In this document: positions 34,996 through 59,854 of the stretch, piece after piece | How the letters are laid out: each line of letters starts with the position of its first letter | How positions within the stretch are numbered: position 1 is the stretch's first letter | Assembly (NCBI RefSeq): GCF_029490015.1 | Contig: NZ_CP120468.1 | Coordinates: 2,666,001-2,730,000, forward strand | Direction of reading: 5' to 3' | Length of the DNA stretch: 64,000 nucleotides | Source: Halobaculum limi | Lineage (GTDB): Archaea; Halobacteriota; Halobacteria; Halobacteriales; Haloferacaceae | Program-made: the position numbers and the translations under genes | The notes under the pieces: model-generated | Database searches by the model: none | Told to the model about the DNA's origin: nothing | What the model saw: the letters and a program-made list of their open reading frames with translations, nothing else

Positions 34996-35154
34996 ACGCG
35001 GTCGCAGGATTTGCCGGACAATAAAGACACCAGAAACACCGGGGGCCGGCAACGACTGGACCCAGTACCCCTCAACCGTCGTTGTGGGCCGTCCACCGCC
35101 GATCTGACAGGCTCGCGATCAACATTGACGACCGTGAATAATAAAGTCGTGCTG

Positions 35155-42137: not shown

Positions 42138-43394
42138 ATGGCCAGCGACGCGCAGGGAGAGCAACCGAGCGAGGATCGCCGGAAGTACGAGTTCCGGAAG
42201 GTGCTCGACGAACTCGACGACTTCGAGGGTTCGGGCACCCAGCTCGTGACGATCTACATCCCCGACGACAAGCAGATCTCCGACGTGGTCGCCCACGTCA
42301 CCCAGGAGCACAGCGAGGCGGCCAATATCAAGTCCAAGCAGACGCGGACGGCCGTCCAGGACGCCCTCACCAGCATCAAAGACCGCCTCCGCTACTACGA
42401 CGTCTACCCGCCGGACAACGGCATCGTCATCTTCTCGGGCGCGGTCGACTCCGGCGGCGGGCGCACGGACATGGTGACGAAGGTACTCGAGTCGCCGCCG
42501 GAGCCCATCCAGTCGTTCCGCTACCACTGCGACTCCAACTTCCTCACCGGCCCGCTCGAGGATATGATGACGGACAAGGGCCTGTTCGGGCTCATCGTCC
42601 TCGACCGCCGCGAGGCGAACGTCGGCTGGCTCAAGGGCAAGCGTGTCGAGCCCGTGAAGTCGGCGTCGTCGCTCGTTCCCGGTAAGCAGCGGAAAGGTGG
42701 CCAGTCCGCACAGCGGTTCGCCCGCCTGCGCCTGGAGGCCATCGACAACTTCTATCAGGAGGTCGCCGGGATGGCGGACGACCTGATGGTCGACAAACGC
42801 CACGACATCGAGGGCATCCTCGTCGGCGGCCCATCGCCGACGAAAGACGAGTTCCTCGACGGCGACTACCTCCACCACGAACTCCAGGACTTAGTCGTCG
42901 GTAAGTTCGACGTCGCGTACACCGACGAGTCCGGCCTGTACGACCTCGTCGACGCCGCACAGGACGTGCTAGCCGACCAAGAGGTCGTCAAGGACAAACG
43001 ACAGATGGAGGAGTTCTTCGAGAAACTCCACACCGGCGAGCAAGCCACCTACGGCTTCGAGCAGACCCGGCGCAACCTCATTATGGGGTCGGTCGACCGC
43101 CTCCTGCTCTCGGAGGACCTCCACCACGACGTCGTCACCTACACCTGCCCGAACGGGCACGAGGAGCGCGAAGTCGTCGAGCGCCGGCACTCCACGCCCA
43201 ACCACGAGTGTGAGGAGTGCGGCGAAGAGGCCGAGGCGGGCGAGCGCGAGGACGTCGTCGAACACCTGATGAACATCGCCGACCAGCGCGGGACGGAGAC
43301 GAAGTTCATCTCCACCGACTTCGAGAAAGGCGACCAACTGATGGACGCCTTCGGCGGCATCGCCGGGATTCTTCGCTACTCGACGGGCGTGTAA
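42138..43394 (+). CDS. prf1: archaeal peptide chain release factor aRF1
   Basis: This 418-residue class I release factor reads all three stop codons and triggers peptide release. It has the stop-codon-recognition motifs NIKS (AANIKSKQTR) and Y-x-C-x3-F (YHCDSNF) in domain 1, and the catalytic GGQ (RKGGQSAQRF) in domain 2. Domain 3 has a zinc-ribbon-like set of Cys (CPNGHE ... CEECGEEAE). ATG 42138 is chosen, with a tactta TATA element about 30 bases upstream. Length and motif order are standard. Confidence 0.97.
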   Translation: MASDAQGEQPSEDRRKYEFRKVLDELDDFEGSGTQLVTIYIPDDKQISDVVAHVTQEHSEAANIKSKQTRTAVQDALTSIKDRLRYYDVYPPDNGIVIFSGAVDSGGGRTDMVTKVLESPPEPIQSFRYHCDSNFLTGPLEDMMTDKGLFGLIVLDRREANVGWLKGKRVEPVKSASSLVPGKQRKGGQSAQRFARLRLEAIDNFYQEVAGMADDLMVDKRHDIEGILVGGPSPTKDEFLDGDYLHHELQDLVVGKFDVAYTDESGLYDLVDAAQDVLADQEVVKDKRQMEEFFEKLHTGEQATYGFEQTRRNLIMGSVDRLLLSEDLHHDVVTYTCPNGHEEREVVERRHSTPNHECEECGEEAEAGEREDVVEHLMNIADQRGTETKFISTDFEKGDQLMDAFGGIAGILRYSTGV

Positions 43395-56914: not shown

Positions 56915-58321
56915 TCAGACCGCCGCGGTCAGGACGCCGCTCGTCCGCACGAAGAAGTAGACGACGAACGCCGCCGCCAGCGCCCAGTGACCCGGACGAA
57001 CCTCGTCACCGCGACCGGCGGCGAGTTTCACGAGCGGGTACGAGACGATGCCTGCGGCGATGCCGTACGCGATGGAGTACGTGAACGGCATGATGAGGAT
57101 GGTCATCCCGGCGGGGATGGCGACCGTGAGGTCGTCCCACGCGAGTTCGACCACGTTGCGAAGCATCACGATGCCGATGACGACCAGCGCGATGTGGCTC
57201 GCGTACAGCGGAACTGCCGCGGCCAGCGGAACGAACGCCAGCGAGACGAGGAACAGCAGACCGACGACGAGCGCGGTCATCCCGGAGCGACCGCCTTCCT
57301 CGACACCGGCAGCGGACTCGATGTAGGTGGTGACCGTCGAGGTGCCGAGCATCCCGCCGACAGTGGTGCCGACCGCGTCGGCCATCAGCGGCTTGTCGAT
57401 GTCGGGGAGGTCACCCTCGTCGTCGAGGAAGCCCGCGACCTGCGAGACGCCGACGAGCGTCCCCGCGGTGTCGAAGAAGTCGACGAAGAAGAACGTGAAC
57501 ACGATCAGCGAGAACACGAACGCGTCGACGTCCTGCAGGCCGGTGACGAACGCGCCCGCGAGCGGTGAGATATCGTACGTCGGCTGTGCCGAGAGGTTCC
57601 CGAGCAGTTGCGCGTCGGGCGCGAGACCGGCCGCCTTCACGACACCGCCGAGCAGCGCGGTGAACAGGATACCGATGACGACAGATCCCGTGACGCCACG
57701 GGCGTACAGGCCGAACGTGAAGAACAGGCCGACGATGGAGACGATAGCGATGGGATCGGAGGCGACTGCACCGAGCGTGATGAGCGTCGCCGGGTCATCG
57801 ACGACGATGCGCATCGCGTCGAGGCCGATGATCGCGAGGAACAGTCCGATACCCGTCCCGACGGCGAGTTTCACGGGCGTCGGGAACGCGTTGATGACGT
57901 ACTCACGCGCCCCGACAGCGGTGAGGATGATGAACAGAATGCCCTCGACGACGACCGCCGCGAGCGCCGTCTGCCACGGGACGCCGAGTGCCCCGACGAC
58001 GGTGAACGCGAAGAAGGCGTTCAGGCCGAGGCCGGGTGCCTGCCCGAACGGCCGTTTCGCGTACAGTGCCATGATGAGCGTCGCCACCGCCGCGGCGATG
58101 AGCGTCACCACCGCGACCATCTGGATGGTCTGTGGGTACGGCGTGTTCGGGAGAATGATCCCCGGCTTCTCACCCTCGATGCCGACGAGGATGCTCGGAT
58201 TCACGAACACGATGTAACTCATCGTCAAGAACGTGGACAGACCCGCGACGACCTCGGTCCGCATGTCCGTCCCGAGTTCGTCGAAGTCGAAGTAGTTCGC
58301 CAGTTGCTGTTGCAGCCCCAT
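56915..58321 (-). CDS. NCS2-family purine permease (AzgA type)
   Basis: This 468-residue permease has about thirteen helices and matches the AzgA subgroup of the nucleobase-cation-symporter-2 family, which imports hypoxanthine, guanine or adenine with protons. Marks are TEVVAGLSTFLTMSYIVFVN near the start, the family's FFVDFFDTAGTLVGV and the AGVEEGGRSGMTALVVG segment. The ATG at 58321 is preferred to the longer frame. The next gene on this strand is an HTH-phosphoribosyltransferase, and both promoters share a near-palindrome. Confidence 0.92.
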   Translation of the reverse strand: MGLQQQLANYFDFDELGTDMRTEVVAGLSTFLTMSYIVFVNPSILVGIEGEKPGIILPNTPYPQTIQMVAVVTLIAAAVATLIMALYAKRPFGQAPGLGLNAFFAFTVVGALGVPWQTALAAVVVEGILFIILTAVGAREYVINAFPTPVKLAVGTGIGLFLAIIGLDAMRIVVDDPATLITLGAVASDPIAIVSIVGLFFTFGLYARGVTGSVVIGILFTALLGGVVKAAGLAPDAQLLGNLSAQPTYDISPLAGAFVTGLQDVDAFVFSLIVFTFFFVDFFDTAGTLVGVSQVAGFLDDEGDLPDIDKPLMADAVGTTVGGMLGTSTVTTYIESAAGVEEGGRSGMTALVVGLLFLVSLAFVPLAAAVPLYASHIALVVIGIVMLRNVVELAWDDLTVAIPAGMTILIMPFTYSIAYGIAAGIVSYPLVKLAAGRGDEVRPGHWALAAAFVVYFFVRTSGVLTAAV

Positions 58322-58337
58322 ACCGGCACGCTTGTGC

Positions 58338-58352
58338 ATATTTTACTTAAGG
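58338..58352 (-). promoter_or_regulatory. purine permease promoter element
   Basis: On the minus strand the A/T run ccttaagtaaaata is centred about 25 bases before the permease ATG and is a clear TATA region. Confidence 0.5.
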
Positions 58353-58373: not shown

Positions 58374-58393
58374 ATATGCACGAACGAGGATAT
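58374..58393. promoter_or_regulatory. candidate operator copy 1, purine permease
   Basis: The sequence ATATGCACGAACGAGGATAT lies about 20 bases upstream of the TATA region. Its core TGCACGAACGAGGA differs at one base from copy 2 before the HTH-phosphoribosyltransferase gene. See findings. Confidence 0.5.
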
Positions 58394-58429
58394 TTGTTGC
58401 CGGATACCCGTCAGTAAACAGAGAGGTCG

Positions 58430-59143
58430 TCAGTCGAACCGGGTCAACGCCCCCACCGGAGCGTCGGTGAGTTCGCTGGCGCGTTCGGTTCCCTCGTCCC
58501 CGACGGCGATGAGTGCGAACACGCCGGCCACCTCCGCGTTCGCCTGCAGGGCGATGTCGAGGAGTAGTTCCTGCGTCTCGCCCGACCGGATGAGGTCGTC
58601 GACGACGAGGACAGACTCGCCGGCGTCGATGGCCTCGGCGGGGAGGTAGTACGTGAGTTCGATGCCGGAGGCGAGGCGTTGGCGCGACTCGATGAACTCC
58701 TCGACGGCCGTCTCCTTCGACTTCTTCGCGTATGCGACACGGGCGTCGAAGTGACTCGCCATCGCCGCACCCAGCGTGATGCCGTCCGTCGCGGCCGTCA
58801 ACACCACGTCGGGCGTCTCGAACCCGAACGACTCGGCGGCGACCGGAGCCACGAGGTCGAGGAACGGTTGGTCGAAGACGACGCCGGAGTTATCGACGTA
58901 CCCCTCCTCGTCGAAGCCGATTCTCGCTTCCAGTTCCTCCGCGAGCGTCTCCCGACCGATGCCGCCGACGACTTCCTGCGCGCGGTCGGCACCGGGGAGG
59001 ACGTGGCCGTTGACGTAGCGATTCAGGTCGCCCGCCGGTAGCCCCGTCACCTCGGCGAGTTCGTCGTACGTTCGCGTCTCCTTCAGCGTGCGCAACACGG
59101 CGACCGCCTGCAGTTGGAGGGCGGCCTTCTCGGCGCGGTTCAT
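58430..59143 (-). CDS. HTH-phosphoribosyltransferase regulator-like protein
   Basis: This 237-residue protein has an N-terminal helix-turn-helix of the XRE kind (about residues 8-55, TYDELAEVTGLPAGDLNRYV) and a phosphoribosyltransferase domain with the PRPP loop VLVVDDLIRSGET. Such fusions usually act as purine-linked transcriptional regulators rather than salvage enzymes. It is not the known GfcR sugar regulator, whose N-terminus differs. The ATG at 59143 is chosen. The gene stands between a purine permease and pyrE, with a candidate operator at its own promoter. Confidence 0.8.
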   Translation of the reverse strand: MNRAEKAALQLQAVAVLRTLKETRTYDELAEVTGLPAGDLNRYVNGHVLPGADRAQEVVGGIGRETLAEELEARIGFDEEGYVDNSGVVFDQPFLDLVAPVAAESFGFETPDVVLTAATDGITLGAAMASHFDARVAYAKKSKETAVEEFIESRQRLASGIELTYYLPAEAIDAGESVLVVDDLIRSGETQELLLDIALQANAEVAGVFALIAVGDEGTERASELTDAPVGALTRFD

Positions 59144-59150
59144 ACACATA

Positions 59151-59164
59151 TGCTCGTTCGTGCA
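59151..59164. promoter_or_regulatory. candidate operator copy 2, HTH-PRT gene
   Basis: The core TGCTCGTTCGTGCA (plus strand) is a palindrome in all G/C and end positions (TGCnCGnnCGnGCA). It sits between the TATA-like stretch near 59165-59173 and the ATG at 59143, a position for repression. See findings. Confidence 0.5.
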
Positions 59165-59320
59165 AGTATGAACACTTCGAATCGCTAACGGCTCAGCATC
59201 AACAGATATGCGTAAGCGTGTGACCACACCAGCGCGACTTCATCACGGTCGAACGGCGAATCCGTAGAATCGGAGTCGGAGGAGTCAGCGAGGGATCGCG
59301 TCTGCGAGTCGACCGCGACC

Positions 59321-59854
59321 TCAGCGGTCTTCGAGGAGTCGCGACGCGGTCAGTACAGACTCCAGTTCGATATCGTGTTCTGCGAGCAGTTCCGACGCGC
59401 CCTCCTCGCGGTCGACGACGACGAGGACGCGGTCGACGACCGCGCCAGCCTCGCGGAGTGCTTCGACGGCGTCGAGCGCCGACTGGCCCGTGGTCGCGAT
59501 GTCCTCCAACACGACGACCTCCTCGCCTTCTTCGAGGTCACCCTCGATGCGGTTGCCGGTGCCGTACTCCTTGGCGGCCTTGCGGACGATGACGTACGGC
59601 GAGTCCGTCTCGACGGCGGTGGCGGCGACGAGTGGGACCGCGCCGAGGGCGACGCCAGCGAGTTTGGCGTCGCCGACGCGGTCGGCGAACGCGTCCGCGA
59701 TGAGGCGGAGGCAGGTGGGGTCGGTCTCGAACTGGTACTTGTCGACGTAGTAGTCGCTCGTCCCGCCGTGGGACAGTTCGAACTCGCCGAACAGGACGGC
59801 ATCGGCGTCACGAAGCGCGGCGATGAGGTCGGCGCTCGCGTCGGTGTCGCTCAT
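59321..59854 (-). CDS. pyrE: orotate phosphoribosyltransferase
   Basis: This 177-residue PyrE makes orotidine 5'-phosphate from orotate and PRPP in pyrimidine synthesis. It has [20 protein letters not shown], the [16 protein letters not shown] loop and the PRPP motif [14 protein letters not shown]. The length is typical for archaeal PyrE, corresponding to the haloarchaeal pyrE2 type. It lies 177 bases upstream of the HTH-phosphoribosyltransferase gene on the same strand. Confidence 0.95.

Follow-up and report, generated by a model that had tools for sequence, protein, structure and literature searches.

PurR of Bacillus subtilis (TIGR01743; PDB 1P4A, 1O57, 7RMW; PMC8789054) joins a phosphoribosyltransferase (PRT)-like effector domain to a DNA-binding head and uses paired palindromic sites at genes for purine synthesis, uptake and related one-carbon functions, and in each of these respects, the set of targets included, the haloarchaeal regulator described below resembles it. 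Haloarchaea also possess GfcR (PMC11519228), a regulator from a phosphoribosyltransferase family; it is PyrE-like, its gene having formerly been named pyrE1, and it activates genes of sugar degradation. A further likeness is to TrmB of Halobacterium salinarum, which affects the expression levels of haloarchaeal purine genes (PMC3794607); the purine genes of H. salinarum were reported to answer to a TrmB-independent regulator, with no PurR homologue identifiable (Todor et al., 2013; PMC3794607). A later study treated VNG0559G, which we infer to belong to the family of the present regulator, purely as an APRT gene (Todor et al., 2015; PMC4540570). In a literature search limited to open-licence papers, no earlier description of the operator or the regulator was found. 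Haloarchaeal purine control had no known dedicated regulator; a gene can now be proposed for that role, together with an exactly defined operator, a list of targets and the layout of the promoters, and the candidate is probably the purine regulator inferred in the 2013 haloarchaeal study (PMC3794607).

The window (the whole 64,000-nucleotide stretch of Halobaculum limi DNA that was analysed) carries pyrE, an HTH-PRT gene and a purine-type permease gene in that order on the minus strand (Table 1), an arrangement retained in many loci across the haloarchaeal order. We consider it probable that the HTH-PRT protein recognises the palindrome TATnCACRnnYGTGnATA and through it governs de novo purine synthesis, one-carbon supply and purine uptake as well as its own expression; most likely it is a repressor relieved by PRPP.

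Table 1. Features of the pyrE-regulator-permease locus (positions within the window).
Feature	Position	Strand	Remarks
Permease, purine-type (Xan_ur_permease, PF00860)	56915..58321	-	Pfam 118 bits
Operator P2 ATATGCACAAGCGTGCCGGT	58322..58341	-	between permease TATA and start codon; matrix score 11.6; 3 mismatches
Permease TATA box TTAAGTA	58344..58350	-	from sequence
Operator P1 ATATCCTCGTTCGTGCATAT	58374..58393	-	upstream of permease BRE/TATA; matrix 20.9 bits, position -72
Regulator gene (HTH + phosphoribosyltransferase)	58430..59143	-	237 aa; NF006328/PRK08558 match
Operator R1 ACTTGCACGAACGAGCATAT	59148..59167	-	between TATA and regulator ATG; matrix score 18.7; contains second 14-mer
Regulator TATA-like box TTCATA	59167..59172	-	from sequence; conserved in orthologous promoters
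Tentative second regulator-promoter site R2 GGTCACACGCTTACGCATAT	59206..59225	-	matrix score 10.9; weak
pyrE, upstream neighbour of regulator	59321..59854	-	TIGR00336 145.8 bits; adjacency kept in many loci; not claimed as target

The protein has an N-terminal HTH and a C-terminal phosphoribosyltransferase domain (PF00156, Pfam), and is up to 95% identical to proteins of named Halobaculum species. It belongs to NF006328/PRK08558 (NCBIfam; 348.5 bits against a cut-off of 184, residues 1-236), a family that databases name adenine phosphoribosyltransferase; the name implies a salvage enzyme, whereas the evidence points to a transcription factor, with enzyme activity perhaps retained. Its nearest solved relatives, by sequence and by fold, are B. 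subtilis PurR structures, with 1p4a the top match to the PRT domain (E 1e-12 by profile; rank 1 by fold, in a comparison that used a predicted regulator structure with a model pLDDT of 79). PurR Y102, D203, D204 and T211 align to the invariant Y82, D182, D183 and T190 of the regulator, the PRPP-binding residues of PurR being kept, and PRPP sensing is expected of the domain by homology. In the PRPP loop, VVDDLIRSGET, the position of R186 is taken by A in the solved APRT 4m0k; R186 is aligned to PurR K207, a residue that contacts ppGpp (PMC8789054), and L184 to PurR F205.

The DNA-binding head differs from that of PurR, which is a winged helix: residues 1-74 of the regulator are predicted to form an all-helical HTH without a wing, the N-terminus shows weak HTH_3 similarity (E 0.007), and a comparison of orthologues reveals near-invariant HTH residues. 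No Pfam match to the purine-repressor N-domain was found in the regulator, and against the whole-protein model TIGR01743 for B. subtilis-type PurR it scores 40.8 bits, the cut-off being 258.7. The DNA sites differ as well, PurR using 14-bp PurBoxes with a central CGAA, 16-17 bp apart, and the regulator probably TATnCACRnnYGTGnATA at spacings of 42-63 bp, so that its sites are not PurBoxes; moreover, the haloarchaeal protein would work at archaeal TATA/BRE promoters. Given the family model, the head and the sites, the regulator is best described as a PurR-like variant and not as a member of the PurR family, which suggests that in bacteria and in archaea the PRT sensor domains of purine regulators are combined with different DNA-binding heads. 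Identity with GfcR was ruled out by family models: NF002620 (orotate phosphoribosyltransferase-like), the family of GfcR, is not among the 12 family-model matches of the regulator, and matches only pyrE here, below its own cut-off. The two proteins are set apart by family and by targets (sugar degradation genes for GfcR, purine genes for the regulator).

A sequence-only reading of the locus had singled out two 14-mers differing by one base, proposing them as a defined operator of an autoregulated purine-uptake circuit. Both are present and differ by that single base; the first, TGCACGAACGAGGA, lies at 58377-58390 on the plus strand, one base away from where it had been placed, and the second, TGCACGAACGAGCA, was located correctly at 59151-59164 on the minus strand. 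Their promoter contexts were also as described, the first lying upstream of the permease TTAAGTA and the second between TTCATA and the regulator ATG. The short pattern TGCnCGnnCGnGCA, in contrast, could not be upheld as the operator: the window holds 7 matches with at most one mismatch, about as many as the 6.8 expected by chance, and the other exact match, at 43146, is inside a predicted gene. The exact 11-mer TGCACGAACGA has four copies genome-wide, two of them within the window, and was rejected as a genome-wide purine mark because neither copy outside the window lies at a purine promoter.

The feature becomes clearly non-random once its AT-rich arms are added and relatives are compared. 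The full operator is an 18-20 bp palindrome, TATnCACRnnYGTGnATA, of which the 14-mers are the cores in P1 and R1; its consensus, nTATgCACgatcGTGcATAn, was derived by comparing the DNA that precedes the regulator and permease genes in 70 orthologous loci, and it is kept there across haloarchaeal families, a result in favour of function where the earlier reading had named lack of conservation as a refutation. P1 contains the first 14-mer and has one mismatch to TATNCACRNNYGTGNATA, and R1 is near-invariant within the genus. Two further sites had escaped the earlier reading: P2, which lies 52 bp from P1 at a position also occupied in orthologous permease promoters, and the weak R2, whose counterparts in orthologues usually lie near -76 and whose register is uncertain in this genus.

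The permease start was re-assigned to the ATG at 58321 (codon-scored ORF), and a start at 58339 was rejected. The TATA box begins 29 nt before ATG 58321, as would be expected of a leaderless haloarchaeal transcript, so that the other ATG, at 58339, probably belongs to P2 and is not a start codon. This upstream ATG falls 8-10 nt past the TATA box and inside P2 (window 58319-58341); automatic annotation would therefore probably set the permease start 18 nt too early.

Genome-wide, the operator proves to be a control site common to almost all of the haloarchaeal purine-making pathway. Counts were obtained by pattern searches with a reversed-pattern control, and the pattern for the own-genome search was built from the regulator and permease promoters alone, which as matrix training promoters are not independent evidence. 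In the own genome, sites precede guaB, purNH/purB, purO, purC, purSQ, purF, purL, purK-purE, the glutaminase subunit gene of GMP synthase, purA and gcvP (glycine decarboxylase), the identities of these targets having been checked by family searches. Pairs of sites occur at purO (43 bp apart), purNH/purB (53 bp) and guaB (53 bp), with weaker pairs at purD and folD, and all four one-mismatch places are purine loci (purO, purC, purSQ and the permease). A coding-region explanation is contradicted by the finding that 15 of the 18 own-genome sites (at most two mismatches) are intergenic; equal frequency in coding DNA, which the earlier reading had named as a refutation, is thus not observed.

An unbiased search of ten genomes from seven families placed about 48 of 54 sites (at most one mismatch) before purine or one-carbon genes. 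The targets comprise purF, purD, purSQ, purL, purK, purC, purB, purNH, purA, guaB, folD, gcvP, serA, hpt and permeases (purD, folD, serA and hpt identified by N-terminal sequences, not by family search). A few sites have no purine neighbour (L224, L233, L235, L256, L282 and, in the own genome, the site near orc1), which counts against the proposal. Distances from site to start, most starts being predicted, are near-constant: 58-59 for purS, mostly 56-57 for purNH, 40 for purL, 51-53 for purK, 54-56 for purD and 72-74 for folD. Operators also stand on glycine decarboxylase, serA-like and folD-like genes (L262, L263, L239, L241, L259, L284), and one-carbon supply therefore seems to belong to the purine regulon. 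The earlier idea of an autoregulated, purine-linked HTH-PRT circuit with an operator is thus sustained by conservation, by these genome-wide targets and by the co-occurrence described below, while its restriction to purine uptake proves too narrow, the circuit reaching to salvage, one-carbon supply and almost the entire de novo route.

The spacing of the sites is strongly ordered. Of 33 secondary sites, 24 have a start-to-start distance of 42-43, 51-53 or 61-63 bp from the main site; apart from three permease promoters, the promoters examined had no part in training the matrix, and reversed flanks used as a control gave 5 secondary matches against these 33. The phases of the pairs cluster for a period of close to 10.4 bp (R 0.72; p approximately 4e-8). 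The preferred spacings correspond to whole helical turns, and would most naturally be read as two dimers on one helical face, cooperating or looping across BRE/TATA. The regulator would bind the 18-20 bp palindrome, often in pairs of sites that share a helical face and are separated by 4, 5 or 6 turns; as a repressor it would pair across the core promoter, and accumulating PRPP would cause it to release the operator, as Bacillus PurR does. Physical binding by the regulator, PRPP as ligand, and repression are all steps that we infer.

Repression is favoured by the sites that lie on or downstream of TATA in the permease, purO and regulator promoters, and it is the likeliest mode for the permease and the regulator's own gene. 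The single sites at purL, purS, purK and guaAa stand upstream of BRE/TATA and end approximately 40-58 bp from the start; a site ending just before BRE at such a single-site biosynthetic promoter fits either occlusion or activation. An alternative, which we regard as unlikely, keeps operator, regulator and regulon unchanged and has the protein activate purine synthesis from these single sites, a place that archaeal activators also use, while repressing only itself and uptake. In Lactococcus, PurR activates the genes of purine synthesis, which speaks for such a scheme, as does the activator role of GfcR, another haloarchaeal HTH-PRT type protein; the sites on or downstream of TATA at purO, the permease and the regulator, and the pairs bracketing the core promoter, suit repression instead.

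The link between the HTH-PRT gene and the operator is borne out by their joint distribution. The regulator is present in 310 of 391 genomes of the class (approximately 80% of those sampled), and these 310 contain 979 sites (at most one mismatch) against 80 reversed-pattern controls, whereas the 81 genomes without it contain 19 sites against 22 controls (Mann-Whitney p 2e-36, not phylogenetically corrected). Seventeen regulator-bearing genomes, which count against the proposal, have zero sites at this threshold. Separate absences of the regulator in three families (f1, f4 and f8) are each accompanied by a background level of the motif, and purL, which has a site at -59 in the bearing genomes compared, has none upstream in twelve regulator-lacking genomes. 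Genomes of several genera retain purL (loci L293-L304) yet are without regulator and operator.

Because the motif tracks the regulator gene through separate losses, an unrelated binding factor is unlikely. A purine-specific operator bound by some other transcription factor, with the HTH-PRT protein only a co-regulated salvage enzyme, would agree with the database name of the protein (adenine phosphoribosyltransferase) and with the frequent common control of regulators and their targets; it is nonetheless improbable, given that the motif has disappeared together with the gene on no fewer than three separate occasions (in families f1, f4 and f8), that the HTH has near-invariant residues, and that the nearest solved relative is a purine repressor. 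That the two 14-mers resemble each other only by chance, the genome being GC-rich, as their chance-level pattern in the window might suggest, has a negligible probability: the operator is conserved, is specific to purine genes across whole genomes and occurs together with the regulator.

Operator, regulon, phasing and the regulator-motif link are established by computation, and the regulator that binds the operator is very probably the product of the adjacent gene, whose present annotation is that of an enzyme. If this is true, the annotation would be corrected for a gene in approximately 80% of the sampled haloarchaeal genomes. A more general picture is possible and is put forward tentatively, in which one autoregulated HTH-PRT protein, named after a salvage enzyme, is the master regulator of purine genes in most haloarchaea, reads PRPP, is maybe still an enzyme, uses paired operators on one helical face across TATA/BRE promoters, represses uptake and itself, and tunes biosynthesis, several lineages having lost both regulator and operators.

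Several further matches to the operator were observed. An operator-like site in the window, CATTGACGACCGTGAATA (35123-35140; two mismatches), precedes a predicted gene (MPTEAPRTYDDFDAETRP...) by 45 bp and may be due to chance. On the second replicon, a two-mismatch intergenic site (G000:C2:100396-100413; L139:1896) stands beside a predicted disulfide reductase gene, with no purine link seen there. A one-mismatch site (L279:1830-1847) occurs 61 bp before a conserved-looking 88-aa protein (MKRLIIHGDPGIRKGAIVEYDGEELVCFGI...) with no assigned function, and a good match of 16.0 bits in the own genome (L126:1915-1934) precedes a replication gene of the orc1 type by approximately 300 bp.
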